DNA from: a virus
IMG/VR virus record: IMGVR_UViG_3300010885_043119
Location: 18,209-82,208 of that record
Reading direction: 5' to 3' (one strand)
Length of the DNA: 64,000 bases
Shown: positions 7,879-42,012 of the stretch, in pieces
Layout: each line of letters starts with the position of its first letter
Position numbering within the stretch: position 1 is the stretch's first letter
Notes under the pieces: generated by a model
What the model saw: only the letters and a program-made list of their open reading frames with translations
The model's database searches: none
What the model was told of the DNA's origin: nothing
Position numbers and translations under genes: made by a program

Positions 7879-8553
7879 TTAGTTTGATGGGTCTAGCCAC
7901 TGTCTAAAATCACCTAAAGTATCTTCTGTTACCACCTTATGAAGTGGAAACATTTGTCTGTATTTATGTAACGTGTACTCTTCTGTAGCTATCACTGGTT
8001 CACCCAACGGAAAAGGCGCTTTTAAAACGTCCTGCGCATAACAATAAGAATAGTATGCGCTTATAGCTATTGCAGCTTCTCCTAGTGGAAAAGAACCCTT
8101 TAAAATATACTTTGCATACATATAAGAGTGTTTTGCAACTTTAGATATAGCGCGCTCTCCCAATATAAAAGGAGCTCTTAAAACATCCGTTGCATAATAG
8201 TAAGAGTATAATGAGCTTTTAGATATTGCATCCTCGCCCAATGGGAAAGGTGCCTTTAAAACTTCGTGTGCATATTCATAAGACGTTACCGCACTTGCGG
8301 CTATCGCAGCTTCTCCTAGAGGGAATCTACCCTTTAAAACATCTTTAGCATAACGGAAAGAGCAGCTTGCACTTGTAGATATAATACGTTCATTTTTTGT
8401 GGGCTCCGTGCTGCGTATTATCTTGCTGCGTATTCTCCTACCAAAGGCATCATGCAACTGAGGATCTTGTAAGTGCCGGATGTAAGCTTGCAGTTCTAGG
8501 CTGTAAGCTGTTTCTGGGCTCATCATGTATTCTAAGCTGTTGGAACTAGCCAT
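7879..8553 (-). CDS. Protein of 26-residue repeats (paralogue 1)
   Basis: A 224-aa protein. After an N-terminal helical region (about 1-55) there are five tandem 26-residue repeats of the form SYxYAxDVLKxPFPLGExAIAxSxxY, then a short cap ending LGDFRQWLDPSN. The repeats probably stack as paired helices in a HEAT/solenoid-like manner; this is inference. Similar YAxDVLKGxFPxGE repeats occur in other phage proteins of unknown function. The start overlaps the end of paralogue 2 by 22 bp and is preceded by AGGAG with 10-nt spacing; MMSPETAY nine codons downstream is an alternative start. Confidence 0.7.
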   Translation of the reverse strand: MASSNSLEYMMSPETAYSLELQAYIRHLQDPQLHDAFGRRIRSKIIRSTEPTKNERIISTSASCSFRYAKDVLKGRFPLGEAAIAASAVTSYEYAHEVLKAPFPLGEDAISKSSLYSYYYATDVLRAPFILGERAISKVAKHSYMYAKYILKGSFPLGEAAIAISAYYSYCYAQDVLKAPFPLGEPVIATEEYTLHKYRQMFPLHKVVTEDTLGDFRQWLDPSN

Positions 8554-9215
8554 GCTTTGAAGTCTCCTAAATTAGCATTAACAACCTTCTCTGCTCTCTT
8601 AGGAAAAAGAGCTACATATCTTTTTAGTGTGAATGGGCACTTAGATATAACCGCCTCACCCAATGCAAATGGAGCTTTTAGAACATCTCTTGCGTATTCA
8701 AAAGACCACTCCGCACTTGTAGCTATTGTAGCCTCGGCCCTAGGGAAAGGCGCTTTTAGTATATCCCTTGCGTAAAAATGAGAGTGCCTTGCATTATTAG
8801 ATATTTGAGCTTCCCCTAATGGGAAGGCCGACTCTAAAACGTCTTTTGCATACAAATAAGCATGAACTGCTTCGGTAGCTATAGCATCCTCTCCTTTTGG
8901 AAAAGGACCTTTTAAAACCTCTTGTGCATAACAACGAGAGTAATAAGGATCAGCGGCAATAGCAGCTTCGCCTTTTGGAAAAGAACCTCCTAAAACGTTC
9001 TTTGCGTAATAATAAGAATTATATCCACTAGAGGCTATGCAGTCCTCCACCGACGTAGCCCTGCCCTTTACAATTTCTTTTGCATACTTGTATGCTATGC
9101 TCGGGTCTTCAAAGATAAGTGAACGGGCAGCAGAAAGCTTGTCCCAATCTAGCCCTGCGGCTTTATCAGGTACAATAACTTCTTTAAGATATTTAAAACT
9201 CTCATCTGTGGTCAT
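8532..9215 (-). CDS. Protein of 26-residue repeats (paralogue 2)
   Basis: A 227-aa protein with about six 26-residue repeats (SYYYAKNVLGGSFPKGEAAI and relatives), a cap with LKRYVALFPKRAE, and a C-terminal LGDFKAWLVPTA. It is clearly paralogous to the gene downstream, sharing the repeat consensus and tail. The start follows AAAGGAGAACAAC. The function is unknown; the solenoid form suggests protein binding. Confidence 0.7.
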   Translation of the reverse strand: MTTDESFKYLKEVIVPDKAAGLDWDKLSAARSLIFEDPSIAYKYAKEIVKGRATSVEDCIASSGYNSYYYAKNVLGGSFPKGEAAIAADPYYSRCYAQEVLKGPFPKGEDAIATEAVHAYLYAKDVLESAFPLGEAQISNNARHSHFYARDILKAPFPRAEATIATSAEWSFEYARDVLKAPFALGEAVISKCPFTLKRYVALFPKRAEKVVNANLGDFKAWLVPTA

Positions 9216-21557: not shown

Positions 21558-23672
21558 CTATTTATAAAGAGTCAGCGTATGATCGCACATGCGCTCCATA
21601 GCTTTCTCGTGACTGACTACAATAACTTGCAGTCCAGAGGACTTAGACATAGCTCTTAGTCTATTGAAAGCTGTGTCTAAACATTCGATGTTGTCATCGT
21701 CTAGACCTACGGTTGGTTCATCAAGTACTAACAGGTTTACACCTGAAGCTACTCCAAACTGAACAGCTAGCCTGAATGCAAGAGCCAGAACAACCTTCTC
21801 ACCGCCTGACAATCTAGCCGCTGGTAAGTCTCTTCCGTCATTGAACTTTGCCCAGAACACAAGCTCGTCATCAGAGTAAACTCTGAACGGAGCGTTAAAG
21901 TCTTCTAGATACTCATTCAACTTAATCACTGTCCTCTTTAAGTAGTTTACCGTAAGTCTCTTCGGTAAGTTAGACTTATGCATAACTTCTTTAAGATTTT
22001 CAAAATGATCCTTAGCAACTTTATTAACCCTAGCTTCTTCTATGTCTCCAACCAGCTTATCTCTTCTATTATATAAGTAATCTAAAGTTTCAACAGTTGC
22101 TTTTGATTGCTCTTCAAATCGTATTTTCTTTTCTCTGTCTTGATTTACTAAATTGATGCTATCACACAATACTCTTTCTTGCATGTAGTAGTCTTCACTT
22201 ATGTTGCATTCTTTACTTCTAGTTTCAATCTGAGACAAAAGTGAGTCTCTGGTTGCTTTTAAAGAAGTTATGCAAAAGTCTAAAGCAGAAAGCTTTGATG
22301 ACAAAGACTCATAGGATGTTCTAAGCTCAGTAAAGGTAGAAATAAACTTATTAACCTCGTCTTCAGAAACAGAAGGCTGCTCAGGTCTTTCAGTCTGAAG
22401 TTTTAGTGTAATTAACTCAAGCTTACTGTTAAGACCAGCTAAGTCTGAAGAGTGTTTGTAATTAGCAGTGTCGTACTCTCTGCTAAGCTGATACTGCTTC
22501 TTCATGTGGTCTATGAGTGGAGACGTCTCCACTAGATGCTTAGATATAGCGTCTATTGCAGCTAAAAGTACTTCTCCGGTAGTACCACATACAGGGCACT
22601 CTTTCTTTGAAGTAAGTTGAATTAGGTTCTGCCTCTTAGCTTCTAAAGCCCCAGCCGACTGTGAGTACTTCTCAAAATCTAAACCACTAGACTCTATGTA
22701 AGGAGACGGCTTTATAGGAGCAGATGCAACTAGTACTGATATACTTTCTTCAACTATAACAAGCTGAGCCTCATTAGCTGCTTTGCTATTGTCGTACTTA
22801 TGTATAAGACTCCACTGATACTGATGTTTTTTATACTCAGATAGAGCTGCATCTGAGTCTTTAACTAAAGACAGGTCATCAACCTTTGCTGAAAGAGGAG
22901 GCCTAGCTTCTTCTGCCTGACTTAGATCAGACAAAACTAAACTTAGAGTTTCTGAACACTTGTTGATGTCACGTTTTACATCTTTCTTTCTTCTTACTTC
23001 GCTGAGGTCTTTTTGAAGCTCAGTGTCGTCTACTACGTTTAAAGACACTTCCTTCAAAGATTTCGATATAGACTCAAGTAGTAGAGTCTTCTCTCGTATC
23101 TGAGCAAGTACAGACTCTACAGTTTCAGATGGAACCTGCACTAATATCTTAGATGAATATTTATTTATCTCGTCGTAGCAAAGTTCTGCTTTGTCTAAAC
23201 CGTATAGCGACTGCAGAGCTGACAGCCTGTCAGATTTAGGTAAAGTAAATATGCTGAACATCTGCCATTGGTCTACAAATATGTAGTCAGACAATATGTT
23301 AGAGCTTACTCCGACCAAACCTTCGATAGCAGTAGTAACTTCTCTGTCTCCAGTCAGTGGAGGCATAGAGTTTATAATTAAAGACCGCTTGTTAGGTCTT
23401 AGGTTCCTCTTTATAACAGCCTTACCGCCTGTTGTAGAAAATGTTAGCTCTACAAATGACTCATCTTTATCTGAGCATATTTTATTAATGTTTTCTGATA
23501 GAACACCTTCATTCCTTTTAAAATCTCCAGTAAGAGCTGCGTACGCTCCCTTGATAGCGTTAGACTTTCCTCCACCGTTAGGCCCTGTTATGGCAGTTAT
23601 GCCATCAAGAAAAGTCCAGTCAAGTTCTTGATGCTGGCAGAAGTTACGCAACCGAAGTTTATCAAGTCTCAT
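21558..23672 (-). CDS. Rad50/SbcC-like (gp46-type) recombination ATPase
   Basis: A 704-aa SMC-like protein. The N-terminus MRLDKLRLRNFCQHQ leads to Walker A GPNGGGKSNAI. A long coiled coil follows, interrupted by a zinc hook CPVCGTTGE near residue 350. The C-terminal lobe has the signature LSGGEKVVLALAFRL, Walker B LLVLDEPTVGLDD and the H-loop VVSHEKAM. It forms the end-processing nuclease complex with the Mre11-like product (24514-25650), resecting DNA ends for RecA. Shorter arms than bacterial SbcC and closer to T4 gp46 in size. The start follows GGAGGTATC. Carries palindrome copy 2. Confidence 0.9.
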   Translation of the reverse strand: MRLDKLRLRNFCQHQELDWTFLDGITAITGPNGGGKSNAIKGAYAALTGDFKRNEGVLSENINKICSDKDESFVELTFSTTGGKAVIKRNLRPNKRSLIINSMPPLTGDREVTTAIEGLVGVSSNILSDYIFVDQWQMFSIFTLPKSDRLSALQSLYGLDKAELCYDEINKYSSKILVQVPSETVESVLAQIREKTLLLESISKSLKEVSLNVVDDTELQKDLSEVRRKKDVKRDINKCSETLSLVLSDLSQAEEARPPLSAKVDDLSLVKDSDAALSEYKKHQYQWSLIHKYDNSKAANEAQLVIVEESISVLVASAPIKPSPYIESSGLDFEKYSQSAGALEAKRQNLIQLTSKKECPVCGTTGEVLLAAIDAISKHLVETSPLIDHMKKQYQLSREYDTANYKHSSDLAGLNSKLELITLKLQTERPEQPSVSEDEVNKFISTFTELRTSYESLSSKLSALDFCITSLKATRDSLLSQIETRSKECNISEDYYMQERVLCDSINLVNQDREKKIRFEEQSKATVETLDYLYNRRDKLVGDIEEARVNKVAKDHFENLKEVMHKSNLPKRLTVNYLKRTVIKLNEYLEDFNAPFRVYSDDELVFWAKFNDGRDLPAARLSGGEKVVLALAFRLAVQFGVASGVNLLVLDEPTVGLDDDNIECLDTAFNRLRAMSKSSGLQVIVVSHEKAMERMCDHTLTLYK
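22516..22533. repeat. Dispersed palindrome, copy 2 (18 bp)
   Basis: AGTGGAGACGTCTCCACT, a perfect 18-bp palindrome inside the gp46-like gene, read as VETSPL in the coiled-coil region. Confidence 0.9.
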
Positions 23673-25728: not shown

Positions 25729-25914
25729 ATGCTAATATTATCAAGAAAAGTAGAAGAGTCTATAAAGATATCAGACGATATCGTAATAAAGATAGTTCGT
25801 ATAAGTGGCAACCAAGTTAAGATAGGAATAGAAGCACCAGCTCACATGACTGTTAGCAGGTCAGAAGATAAAACTAGATCTGTTGGTAAGTTTAACCTTA
25901 AACATACCTCATAA
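25729..25914 (+). CDS. csrA: CsrA-family RNA-binding translational regulator
   Basis: A 61-aa protein that follows CsrA/RsmA almost end to end: [20 protein letters not shown], then [17 protein letters not shown], and HMTVSRSED. The RNA-contacting residues of the family (Leu4 and Arg6 region of strand 1; the V-x-R near position 44, here VSRSE) are present. Host CsrA binds GGA motifs in mRNA leaders to block or stabilise translation. It is one of the few plus-strand genes here, with ribosome site CAGGAG and a TATAAT box upstream. Its end overlaps the convergent GT75-like gene by 17 bp. It could retune host carbon flow or regulate phage GGA-rich leaders. Confidence 0.92.
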
Positions 25915-30655: not shown

Positions 30656-31369
30656 TTAAACATCATCGCCTACGTTGGCGTTTGAGAAAAAATGAGAGTA
30701 TGCTTTTTTACCTTTAAGCATTCTCCTAATCGTATCCATAGCTTTTGCCAATATTTGACGAGCTCTTTCTCTAGTAATTCCAAGTTTATCTCCTATCTGC
30801 TGTAAATTTAGACCTTTGTTGTATTTGTATTTAATAATCATCTTAGACCTTGAATCTAAATGCTCTGATATAATATCCCACATAACTTCGTTTCCGCCCA
30901 CGCTATCAATAAGATCTAAGGCCCAACTAGTTTCTTTTTCTTTATATTCTAAATCTTTAAAAACAGATCCAGCAGAGTTAACTACTTTAGTTTTTACAGA
31001 ATAATAAGATACAAAAGTGCAGTAAGGAAATATTACCTCATGTGAGTCTTTCAACTCTTTCCAACTGGCAGCCATGTGATCAGATTCAAATCTTACAAAT
31101 GTAGCTTTAACGTGTTTAAAACAATAATTAAAAACTCTATCTTTAAAAAAGTTATCGCTATAACAGTTAGCAAAAAACAAAGAACTGTTAAAAGATAAAG
31201 CTATAGAGCCAAGGTAGTCTTTGCTATCGCCTCCAAAGACTTTAGCTAGTTCATCAGACAGTGCAATAATCAAATCTTGGTACCTATACCACATGTATTC
31301 AAAATTATAATGTTTAGTTACTCTACCTCGTACCTTAACCGGCTTAGTTAGCACTTCTTTTACCGACAT
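30656..31369 (-). CDS. Phage sigma factor (sigma-70 region 4-like)
   Basis: A 237-aa protein. The C-terminal part is a clear region 4: HLDSRSKMIIKYKYNKGLNL, then LQQIGDKLGITRERARQIL and AKAMDTIRRML, which is the -35-binding HTH with the E-I/G-x-x-L-G-[IV]-[ST]-R-[ER]-R-[AV]-R-Q-I pattern. The N-terminal half (YMWYRYQDLIIALS onward) could be region 2 but is diverged. It probably redirects host RNA polymerase to late promoters, as T4 gp55 does. The upstream region carries a hairpin and a tandem 29-bp repeat that may regulate it. Confidence 0.8.
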   Translation of the reverse strand: MSVKEVLTKPVKVRGRVTKHYNFEYMWYRYQDLIIALSDELAKVFGGDSKDYLGSIALSFNSSLFFANCYSDNFFKDRVFNYCFKHVKATFVRFESDHMAASWKELKDSHEVIFPYCTFVSYYSVKTKVVNSAGSVFKDLEYKEKETSWALDLIDSVGGNEVMWDIISEHLDSRSKMIIKYKYNKGLNLQQIGDKLGITRERARQILAKAMDTIRRMLKGKKAYSHFFSNANVGDDV

Positions 31370-32765: not shown

Positions 32766-32820
32766 TGTACACGTTCCACTTAATTCACTATATTCTAAAG
32801 AATATAGTAGTATACTTTTA
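32766..32820 (+). repeat. 55-bp inverted repeat, left copy
   Basis: Exact reverse complement of 33218-33272. It contains an internal 9-bp stem (ACTATATTC / GAATATAGT, loop TAAA). It lies just past the stop of the 124-aa gene it brackets. Confidence 0.9.
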
Positions 32821-32830
32821 GCTCTATTTA

Positions 32831-33205
32831 TTATTCAATTTCGTTTGGAAACTGGTCAGCCTCTTCTCCATCGGAAAGCCAAGGTGAAACTGGTCCTATA
32901 GGTTTGATATCAACTAGCTCAGCTCTTCTCCATATTTTTAGAAAGTTACTGCTTTCAAACAAACTGTTCATAAAATAACCTTCTACGTAATCAAAACTTA
33001 AAAAGTCAAAATCATCAGGATTAAGACCTTTTTCAGTTAACTGTTCTTTAACTTTTGCTATTGCACACTCATGGTGCTTTCCTAAAGACACTTGAAACTT
33101 TGTACACGAGAGCTTTACAAAGTGAGGTATCTTTGAATATTTAGTTCTTACAGCTTCACTTTTATCCTTATGATTTTTTAAAACTACACACCTTACAGAA
33201 GCCAT
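32831..33205 (-). CDS. Hypothetical protein bracketed by 55-bp inverted repeats
   Basis: A 124-aa protein of unknown family. Basic N-terminal half (VVLKNHKDKSEAVRTKYSK), acidic C-terminus (DGEEADQFPNEIE). The start follows AAAGGATTAAACC. It is enclosed between perfect inverted repeats, 10 bases after its stop and 12 bases before its start. It has no transposase or recombinase motif. The upstream repeat copy carries TATAGT and TATACT boxes that could be its promoter. Confidence 0.6.
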   Translation of the reverse strand: MASVRCVVLKNHKDKSEAVRTKYSKIPHFVKLSCTKFQVSLGKHHECAIAKVKEQLTEKGLNPDDFDFLSFDYVEGYFMNSLFESSNFLKIWRRAELVDIKPIGPVSPWLSDGEEADQFPNEIE

Positions 33206-33217
33206 GGTTTAATCCTT

Positions 33218-33272
33218 TAAAAGTATACTACTATATTCTTTAGAATATAGTGAATTAAGTGGAACGTGTACA
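33218..33272 (-). repeat. 55-bp inverted repeat, right copy
   Basis: Exact reverse complement of 32766-32820. On the minus strand it leads directly into the 124-aa gene's ribosome site, so it likely contains that gene's promoter. Confidence 0.9.
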
Positions 33273-33321
33273 AACTACTGTACAAATTGTTTAAACAGTT
33301 CCACTTTTAAACCAAATCTAG

Positions 33322-39824: not shown

Positions 39825-40193
39825 CTATAGTGCGTAAAAAGAGTTAGTAACAAGATCTTTAGATACTTTACAAATAAGGCTAGATCGCTCATTATCGTCA
39901 AGTTCTGCGGCTGTGCACGCTGCATCAACTTTACACTTTATAATATTACAAGCTTTCTCAAACGGCTCTAAAATGTCATTCTTGCGGGACCTCGCTGATT
40001 TACCATGCGATCCCTCCATCGCAGATACAACTTGTAAAACTAACCCAAGATGCCGCCTGTCGAGGTCGTTGACCGCTAGGATTAGCATTTGTTTTGCTTG
40101 AAGACTTTCGCTTAATGCGCTATCCCCAAATGCTTTTAGTTTTGATGAAAGACTCTTAGATATTCTAAATATAACATGAGTGCTTGCTGACAT
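39825..40193 (-). CDS. Ribbon-helix-helix-like protein
   Basis: A 122-aa protein. The N-terminus has a strand (STHVIFRISKSLSSKLKAFG) followed by helices and MLILAVNDLDRRHLGLVLQV. The same layout of strand, helix, L..L...D.R.L occurs in the proteins at 41146-41478 and 41488-41973, so the three are diverged paralogues, probably Arc/MetJ-type regulators. Ribosome site AAAGGAACAACAAA. Confidence 0.5.
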   Translation of the reverse strand: MSASTHVIFRISKSLSSKLKAFGDSALSESLQAKQMLILAVNDLDRRHLGLVLQVVSAMEGSHGKSARSRKNDILEPFEKACNIIKCKVDAACTAAELDDNERSSLICKVSKDLVTNSFYAL

Positions 40194-40761: not shown

Positions 40762-40926
40762 TTATTCTTTAACTTTTTCTTTGAACTCTCTCTCAGCCTG
40801 CTCAGACACTACACTACGGATGTAGTCTCCCCACCGAACTCCTTTGTTGGCAGCAGCGAAAACAATCTTTGCATACTGATCATGTGAAAACATAATCTTT
40901 ACTAGTTTTTTATCATCTGAACTCAT
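40762..40926 (-). CDS. 54-aa ribbon-helix-helix-like protein
   Basis: A small gene with AAAGGAGAATAAAA before its ATG. The product starts MSSDDKKLVKIMFSHDQYAK and continues with a helix WGDYIRSVVSEQAEREF. Strand-helix-helix of this size fits an Arc-type DNA-binding dimer. Confidence 0.55.
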   Translation of the reverse strand: MSSDDKKLVKIMFSHDQYAKIVFAAANKGVRWGDYIRSVVSEQAEREFKEKVKE

Positions 40927-40965
40927 TTTTATTCTCCTTTTAATTTAATTAATGTTACTGTACTG

Positions 40966-41130
40966 TTACTTTGCTCTAACTGCATGGTTTGTATTATCTT
41001 CTATTATTTGTATTCCCCGCTCCTTAGCGAGTTTGTCTATGCCTGCTCTATTAGCTGCTTTAGCTGCAGCTGTATCTTTTTTATTTGTTTTTATTGTTAA
41101 CTTTACTAAATCTTTTGGCATTATAAACAT
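40966..41130 (-). CDS. 54-aa basic protein
   Basis: A small gene with AAAGGAAAGTCCTA before its ATG. The product MFIMPKDLVKLTIKTNKKDT continues with an Ala/Lys-rich helix. No family recognised; an in-frame ATG three codons on is an alternative start. Confidence 0.5.
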   Translation of the reverse strand: MFIMPKDLVKLTIKTNKKDTAAAKAANRAGIDKLAKERGIQIIEDNTNHAVRAK

Positions 41131-41145
41131 TAGGACTTTCCTTTC

Positions 41146-41478
41146 TTATTCTCTAGATCTGATGTACCTATCTGTTTCTACTTGTATCGCTTCGTGCACT
41201 TTATTAAAATCTGCGACCCTAACATCGTCAAAATGTCCTTTTAAAAATGAACCCATATGATTAGCGCATTCTTCGAAAGTATTAATGTTTTTATTGGCTT
41301 TTGCCATATAGTATATGGCTCCATAGCACCTTATGTCTATGAAGTTTAAGCTTAGAGCTAGTATGTTCTTAGCTACTTGGTTTACAGATATATCCCACTT
41401 CTTAGCTATTATTTCTAATTCTACTAACATTGTTGAAGCAGGTTTAAATTGTACATGCCCAGTTGTCTTCATTTTCAA
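41146..41478 (-). CDS. Ribbon-helix-helix-like protein
   Basis: A 110-aa protein. GHVQFKPASTMLVELEIIAK and KWDISVNQVAKNILALSL form a strand-helix-helix; the rest is helical. Shares the LxxLxxxxxDxR layout with its two neighbours. Ribosome site AAAGGTTGAAA. Confidence 0.5.
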   Translation of the reverse strand: MKMKTTGHVQFKPASTMLVELEIIAKKWDISVNQVAKNILALSLNFIDIRCYGAIYYMAKANKNINTFEECANHMGSFLKGHFDDVRVADFNKVHEAIQVETDRYIRSRE

Positions 41479-41487
41479 CCTTTCTTA

Positions 41488-41973
41488 TTATTCTGAGAGG
41501 TCTACTGTAAACGACAATTTACTTGCTGGTTCGTTAGCTTTTGCGATAGTGATTAAGCGATCTTGTGCTTCGCTAATTCCCATAAATTGTAGTTCAAAGT
41601 CTTTGACGTCATCTCCGTGCTCTTTGCACGCTGAGCGTACAATACTGAAAATAAGTCCGCACCTTTGGTCTTCGCTGTGCACTTTAACGCCCCCACTTTC
41701 AAACATTTTAATAGTATCTTGAATTCGTTTACAGCACCCTTCAAAGAAGTCGGCGGATTTAAGACTGGGGACTATTCCATAAGATCGTATTAAGCTTTCT
41801 GTCATCTTTGAAATAAAACTTAAATATCTACAATCCATGTCATACATTGACAATATTGCTAATCTTTTAGCAACTAAAGATTCAGAAATTCCTAATTTAT
41901 CAGCAAGATTTTCGAGCGCTTTATTAGTCGTTATGCTAGTTCGATAATTCATCTGCTTCCGTAGTGTAGCCAT
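41488..41973 (-). CDS. Ribbon-helix-helix-like protein
   Basis: A 161-aa protein, start at MATLRKQMNYRTS because AAGGAGAAATATTT precedes it; the upstream part of the frame runs into the terminator. YRTSITTNKALENLADKLGI then SESLVAKRLAILSMYDMDCR matches the other two paralogues. Probable DNA-binding regulator with a C-terminal helical domain. Confidence 0.5.
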   Translation of the reverse strand: MATLRKQMNYRTSITTNKALENLADKLGISESLVAKRLAILSMYDMDCRYLSFISKMTESLIRSYGIVPSLKSADFFEGCCKRIQDTIKMFESGGVKVHSEDQRCGLIFSIVRSACKEHGDDVKDFELQFMGISEAQDRLITIAKANEPASKLSFTVDLSE

Positions 41974-42012
41974 AAATATTTCTCCTTCTAAATACCTGTA
42001 GATACGAAAAAA

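Follow-up and report, generated by a model that had tools for sequence, protein, structure and literature searches.

A gene for a protein of 124 amino acids in a large phage is bracketed by inverted repeats that are perfect over 55 bp, and such a bracket was found around the gene in each of the six phage genomes that encode a homolog. Both arms of the repeat carry, directed into the gene, a box that equals the consensus box of promoters found elsewhere in these phages, followed by a perfect hairpin and a sequence resembling a −10 element. The reading that we tentatively favour, and to which we give slightly less than an even chance, is that two alike promoter/operator elements face inward, one in sense and one in antisense direction, around one fast-evolving gene and are kept the same by conversion.

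The window, i.e. the whole stretch of 64,000 nucleotides that was analysed, belongs to a viral record of 82 kb (G000). Another record of the same virus, IMGVR_UViG_3300027782_000032 (G001), is 190 kb long; it was identical to the window over the first 58.6 kb and differed from G000 by 5 mismatches over the ~82 kb compared. The virus is a large phage encoding a DNA polymerase A with a UDG-like domain, a primase and a helicase, and also a fused beta/beta′-type RNA polymerase and a sigma-region-4 protein. The fused phage RNA polymerase is a 1485-aa protein with Rpb2 (beta) and Rpb1 (beta′) domains, encoded on the minus strand at L032:3411-7865. A candidate for the phage RNA polymerase/sigma lies at 30656-31369 in the window. 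A sister phage, IMGVR_UViG_3300024346_000041 (G002), was ~90% identical. Genes located at 7879-9215, 39825-40193 and 40770-41982 in the window, including paralogous neighbours near 8 kb, were absent from G002.

The two arms in the window matched as exact reverse complements in 55 of 55 positions and are separated by a spacer of 397 nt. A preliminary description of the stretch had reported this perfect repeat, a single 124-aa ORF between the arms with 10-12 bases to spare and an internal 9-bp hairpin in each arm. All these features were recovered: the ORF on the minus strand leaves 10 and 12 bases, and both arms contain ACTATATTC-TAAA-GAATATAGT, in which a stem of 9 bp closes a loop of 4 nt. 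The coordinates are given in the table. No further occurrence of a 30-mer from the arm was found in the window when up to 3 mismatches were allowed (chance expectation 0.00), and the runner-up among the spaced inverted repeats in the whole 190-kb genome was only 25 bp long. A 25-bp inverted repeat (96%) at 21970-22283 in the window lies within a 704-aa SMC/SbcC-like gene, is weaker in G002 and may be a chance occurrence in a coiled-coil gene.

Table. Features of the bracketed locus, numbered by position in the window.
Feature	Position	Strand	Remark
Bracketed gene, 124 aa	32831..33205	-	Homologs in six phage records; dN/dS 0.25 vs sister
5′ arm (right): box, hairpin and proposed −10, directed into gene	33218..33272	-	Exact reverse complement of 32766-32820
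3′ arm (left): identical element facing the 3′ end of the gene, i.e. antisense	32766..32820	+	Reverse-complement match
Putative promoter box CTTAATTCA, 5′ arm	33251..33259	-	Equals consensus upstream box of 35 putative phage promoters, six genomes
Putative promoter box CTTAATTCA, 3′ arm, antisense direction	32779..32787	+	Equals consensus box of the 35 putative promoters
5′-arm hairpin/palindrome ACTATATTC-TAAA-GAATATAGT	33230..33251	-	Stem lineage-variable, always perfect
Proposed −10 TATAGT, end of 5′-arm hairpin	33230-33235	-	24 nt to ATG
3′-arm hairpin/palindrome	32787..32808	+	Contains TATAGT at 32803-32808
Ribosome-binding site AAAGGA of bracketed gene	33213..33218	-	33213-33217 outside repeat; sequence inspection
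Two direct TTTGTACA units (TTTGTACA-GTAG-TTTGTACA) upstream of box	33267..33286	-	Possible regulator site
Inverted half-site GTTCCACTT (AAGTGGAAC on minus strand)	33298..33306	+	Sequence inspection

The inverted half-site is located 32 bp upstream of the GTTCCACTT belonging to the 5′ arm itself. By sequence inspection, the other genomes also have equivalents upstream of their 5′ arm, some of them one mismatch off. The left arm of the window retains a single TGTACA, and similar TGTACA pairs adjoin the 3′ arm in G005 and G009.

Protein and exact-DNA scans of IMG/VR recovered only the virus of the window and G002. When IMG/VR was scanned with an 18-bp version of the dispersed palindrome GGAGACGTCTCC, further members of the lineage were obtained, in four of which (G005, G009, G010 and G013) a homolog of the 124-aa protein was found, with 43%, 43%, 28% and 32% identity over the alignment, respectively. 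A profile scan of IMG/VR revealed no homologs beyond these six, and INPHARED gave zero DNA or protein matches. A protein match in a Euryarchaeota MAG (L042) was located within a larger aminoacyl-tRNA-synthetase-like ORF and was rejected as a chance match. The six homolog genomes, those of the virus of the window, G002, G005, G009, G010 and G013, represent the only four independent lineages known.

The inverted repeat brackets the gene in 6/6 homologs with a length of 35-71 bp, perfect in five genomes and 90% identical in one. In G002, where the gene is 81% identical at the protein level, the repeat was 62 bp and perfect; perfect repeats were also found in G005 (38 bp), G009 (35 bp) and G013 (42 bp), the last of which has a tandem third copy behind the gene. 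The repeat of G010 was 71 bp long with 90% identity and a perfect core. In G013 a tandem duplication of the 3′ arm (58-bp unit, L078:1753-1851) brings the hairpin elements of the locus to three. In all six genomes the bracketing repeat was the longest spaced inverted repeat, the others reaching at most 25 bp. One arm starts 12-25 nt ahead of the ATG and the other overlaps the stop codon or lies no more than about 10 nt beyond it. The preliminary description had considered an assembly artefact; since the locus is present in both records of the virus (G000 and G001), in the sister phage with its 62-bp repeat and, with other arm sequences, in four distant phages, faulty assembly of a single record does not account for the bracketing repeat.

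The order of genes was also shared by the six genomes: an 83-aa gene on the opposite strand, the bracketed gene, and genes of 93, 265 and 162 aa, followed, where the stretch reaches beyond the 162-aa gene, by a 271-aa gene, a 400-aa gene and a CsrA-like gene. A small protein resembling CsrA by eye is encoded at 25729-25914 on the plus strand of the window, opposite to its neighbours, and is 50-65% conserved in four relatives. Both the syntenic place of the bracketed gene and its orientation relative to the neighbours were unchanged in 6/6 assembled genomes. The same neighbours and orientation argue for vertical inheritance, and a bracketed architecture common to phages whose proteins are only 28-43% identical argues for age; by sequence comparison the module thus appears to be old and vertically inherited. 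These observations alter the view of the locus given in the preliminary description. Recent duplication, one of its explanations for the identical arms, does not fit bracketing at such protein distances, and arm identity is better ascribed to concerted evolution. The suggestion of an invertible or mobile segment met with one constant orientation and one syntenic place, the unit being nowhere else in these genomes, and the possibility that the unit might not occur elsewhere gave way to five further phages with the bracketed gene in IMG/VR. A recent mobile insertion was rejected in view of the conserved synteny and the lack of other copies. Insertion sequences and MITEs are likewise at odds with the fixed neighbours, the single copy and the absence of a target duplication at the arm ends. 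On this last point, and in naming no transposase, inspection agreed with the preliminary description. Contigs with the 18-bp palindrome and without the gene also lacked the 93-aa neighbour, so that no empty site was obtained.

The palindrome itself is a 12-bp sequence, GGAGACGTCTCC (consensus AGTGGAGACGTCTCCACT), with 23 perfect copies in G001 where about 0.01 was expected. Its sites in the window are at about 14709, 22519, 31727, 37429, 47727 and 58684, and many are inside ORFs. The spacing was evener than random (CV 0.37 with a cluster merged; 0/20,000 simulations as even). GGAGACGTCTCC is repeated also in G002, G005, G009, G010, G013 and other contigs and resembles dispersed sites such as stoperators or parS.

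Relative to G002, the bracketed gene displayed a dN/dS of 0.25 at a dS of 0.40, which shows that the ORF is coding and under purifying selection. No Pfam, PHROG or NCBIfam family matched the 124-aa protein and no recognised DNA-binding domain was found in it. An AlphaFold2 model made from the six sequences had a fair mean pLDDT of 76, against only 40 for a two-sequence model. A Foldseek search with the six-sequence model gave no hit below 1e-3 and no confident structural relative; weak matches to ferredoxin-fold-like structures (PurS, Cas2) were discounted.

Read inward, all arms contain CACTTAA(T/G/C)TC, then a perfect hairpin beginning at the next base, then A. The hairpin has a stem of 8-10 bp, with A-T as the first and C-G as the last pair, and a loop of TAAA or TAA in all arms. 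Between the stems of the four independent lineages, 3-8 pairs are altered on both sides and all remain Watson-Crick perfect, with box and loop constant. The chance of a perfect hairpin of such size exactly adjoining the box is about 1e-4 per sequence. The hairpin element was confined to the bracketed locus, with 2-3 copies per genome.

Box, stem and loop are wholly shared between the arms of one genome and the arms differ among lineages. The single substitution between G001 and G002 in the shared arm core is found in both arms (AGTAGTAT versus AGTATTAT), and G005 and G009 are separated by a second concerted change, CTTAAGTCA in both arms of the former versus CTTAATTCA in both arms of the latter. 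This pattern of arms matched within the genome, different between lineages and with substitutions fixed in both copies is that of arms evolving in concert, as judged from the aligned genomes. Around the 5′ arm, G001 and G002 differed by 1 substitution in ~70 bp, which compared with the dS of 0.40 makes this region far more conserved than the local synonymous sites. Some changes escape correction, since one 12-bp unit (TTTGTACA-GTAG) was lost from the left arm of the window only, while the 5′ side of the window and both sides in G002 keep it. The idea that the left arm is a mere copy of the right arm was dropped because the 3′ arm of G005, G009 and G013 has TGTACA motifs absent from the 5′ arm. 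Template switching between inverted repeats is known to homogenise their arms (PMC8604942). Repeats homogenised in this way (PMC8604942, PMC8794818) resemble those of the phages in having identical arms that nevertheless diverge between lineages, but the known short cases have short spacers, whereas here a gene of ~400-500 bp lies between the arms.

The arms are linked to transcription by their box. In the six genomes, 37 matches to G(C/T)GTCATAAT were detected, and in 35 of these CTTAATTCA, or a sequence close to it, precedes the match at a distance of ten bases and (A/G/T)TG follows it at a distance of three, which gives the layout CTTAATTCA-N10-GCGTCATAAT-N3-RTG. Six sites were read in detail and lay at gene boundaries, several directly after a terminator ending TTTTTTTAGCTAT(C/T)A, and a ribosome-binding site and a start codon followed ~100 nt downstream of the sites inspected. 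Examples are L024:2676-2704 (minus strand) and L093:3284-3312 (plus strand). By position and layout, the 35 sites clearly look like a promoter class of this phage lineage. A comparison of L024 (G001, 108.7-109.4 kb) with L037 (G002, 74.3 kb) showed that the G002 promoter downstream of a palindrome site matches another G001 promoter 660 bp off, which suggests that gene-plus-promoter cassettes are exchanged at promoters.

The arm box equals the class consensus CTTAATTCA exactly in G001, G002, G009 and G010; the boxes of G005 and G013 have one mismatch, and within each of these genomes the change is identical across all arms. Counting both strands, each genome has 2-8 exact boxes, and the arms account for two of them in 4/6 genomes. 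A PWM score equalling that of the arms was reached in 0 of 20 Markov genomes. At the 3′ edge of the hairpin TATAAT, or TATAGT in the window, was present in 4/4 independent lineages, with a simulated chance of 2% per lineage and about 2e-7 for four. The distance from this −10-like sequence to the ATG is 24-29 nt (24 in the window, 26 in G013) and the ribosome-binding site lies between them. The right copy was expected in the preliminary description to hold the promoter of the gene, and it looks so, with TATAGT 24 nt before the ATG, AAAGGA and the phage's own box upstream.

Against a promoter function stands that the extended −10 GCGTCATAAT of the class, at its fixed distance, is missing from the arms, where the hairpin and TATAAT/TATAGT take its place. 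The distance from box to TATAAT also varies (15, 18, 21 and 23), a variation ill suited to a plain sigma-70 promoter, and a standard sigma-70 promoter is therefore not claimed. The same variation among genomes led us to revise the view of the arm as a simple copy of the palindrome-linked early promoter (TTAATT-17-TATAGT).

The favoured arrangement of facing promoters may be depicted as follows: Each element would be composed of the box CTTAATTCA, a perfect hairpin or palindrome with a TAAA/TAA loop and the −10-like TATAAT. From the copy in front of the gene, a sense message would start about 7 nt past the −10, near 33223. Since this element recurs in the 3′ arm and faces the gene there, transcription would proceed from both ends, and the mirrored copy behind the gene would start an antisense message near 32815. 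Both copies would be controlled alike, probably via a palindrome-binding protein. The simplest candidate for this regulator would be the protein that the gene itself encodes, as its divergence goes together with that of the stem. The inverted repeats could stay identical through conversion or template switching, and identity might be reinforced by the need to fit one binding protein. The constant orientation of the loop (TAAA, not TTTA) hints that the recognised form is a folded single strand and not a duplex operator. A more specific proposal, which is possible but on balance doubtful, is that of an undescribed phage control module whose product reads both hairpins and switches sense and antisense transcription together, the identity of the ends being actively maintained.

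PeSLs are direct-orientation modules of promoter and terminator scattered over many genes. The locus described here differs in having two mirrored copies around one gene and a hairpin that is no terminator: while PeSLs have a many-copy stem-loop terminator, the arm hairpin is A/T-rich, without a T-run and unique to the locus. According to the passages of PMC4503421 that cite Arbiol 2010 and Comeau 2014, the PeSLs of T4-type phages are like the present elements in that small accessory genes have a phage promoter combined with a stem-loop at their boundaries.

The strongest rival to the facing-promoter model is a REPtron-like relation, which we consider unlikely. The bracketed protein would be a DNA-processing enzyme, either domesticated or so far unrecognised, and would recognise the arms as hairpin ends in the form of folded ssDNA; by copying or repairing the ends the enzyme would make both match and co-diverge with the gene. 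RAYT genes are always located between two inverted REPs with complementary stem changes, a conserved foot and congruent repeat and gene trees (PMC2817692), and the anatomy observed here is as described for them. Two inverted hairpins with a constant foot flanked the gene in 6/6 homologs, foot and loop were constant and the stem variable, the pair was identical per genome and the gaps to the ORF were about 0-25 nt. As in REPtrons (PMC2817692, PMC6006769), the unit consists of one small gene between the hairpins, the elements co-diverge with the gene and the unit stays in place. The six-member alignment, however, contained no HUH motif (no H-x-H among the invariant columns) and no invariant Tyr that could be catalytic, and the 124-aa protein gave no Pfam transposase match. 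The elements are undispersed, occurring only 2-3 times per genome and all at one locus, the syntenic place is identical in all six genomes, the promoter box of the phage itself serves as the foot and the unit is phage-borne.

A device acting at the level of RNA seems quite unlikely. On a read-through message the arms would form a 55-bp duplex around the ORF, to be cut by RNase III or to switch against the local hairpins. A 561-nt message does fold with the full stem (z-score −10.7), and the local hairpins and the upstream half-site could compete, but of the 232 inter-arm pairs in the five perfect-armed genomes none was G-U, a pattern closer to copying of DNA than to selection for pairing in RNA. 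A long duplex needs neither a constant box nor a constant loop, and there was no Rfam match. Were the arm a promoter, the gene's own message would be without most of the 5′ arm. The RNA stem around the message put forward in the preliminary description is thus possible as such and unlikely on the gene's own transcript, which would start inside the right arm. Improbable to a greater degree is an invertible cassette, in which the segment would flip between the arms and the gene would be expressed either way, a promoter being present in both arms and the ribosome-binding site moving with the gene. The geometry permits flipping, and inversion of the spacer is a known by-product of template switching at inverted repeats (PMC8604942); the single orientation in 6/6 assembled genomes speaks against it. 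So does the outcome of a recombinase search: in agreement with the preliminary description, which saw no transposase, neither PF00239 (serine) nor PF00589 (tyrosine) was found in G000, G001 or G002, the three records of the virus and its sister, in a search whose controls were detected and which covered these three records, G000 and G002 being fragments. Segments inverted by Gin/Cin/Pin and by tyrosine invertases similarly comprise an inverted-repeat segment with a promoter, whereas here no recombinase was found, one orientation was seen and the putative promoter is in both repeats. Very improbable, finally, is a role of the mirrored hairpins as a DNA site acting in cis in replication or packaging, with the gene incidental or encoding the binding protein. 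Hairpin inverted repeats at one fixed locus per genome would suit such a signal, but there was no skew inflection at the locus, and the box and −10 of the arm are properly positioned for the gene.

Mirrored elements that vary between lineages yet are matched within each genome amount to a natural experiment, both on concerted evolution and on the co-evolution of a protein and its site. The module would extend the few known layouts in which inverted hairpins are inseparable from one gene, in this case without a transposase. The promoter class, in turn, provides a transcription map that can be tested for this lineage of large, uncultivated phages, which encode an RNA polymerase of their own.
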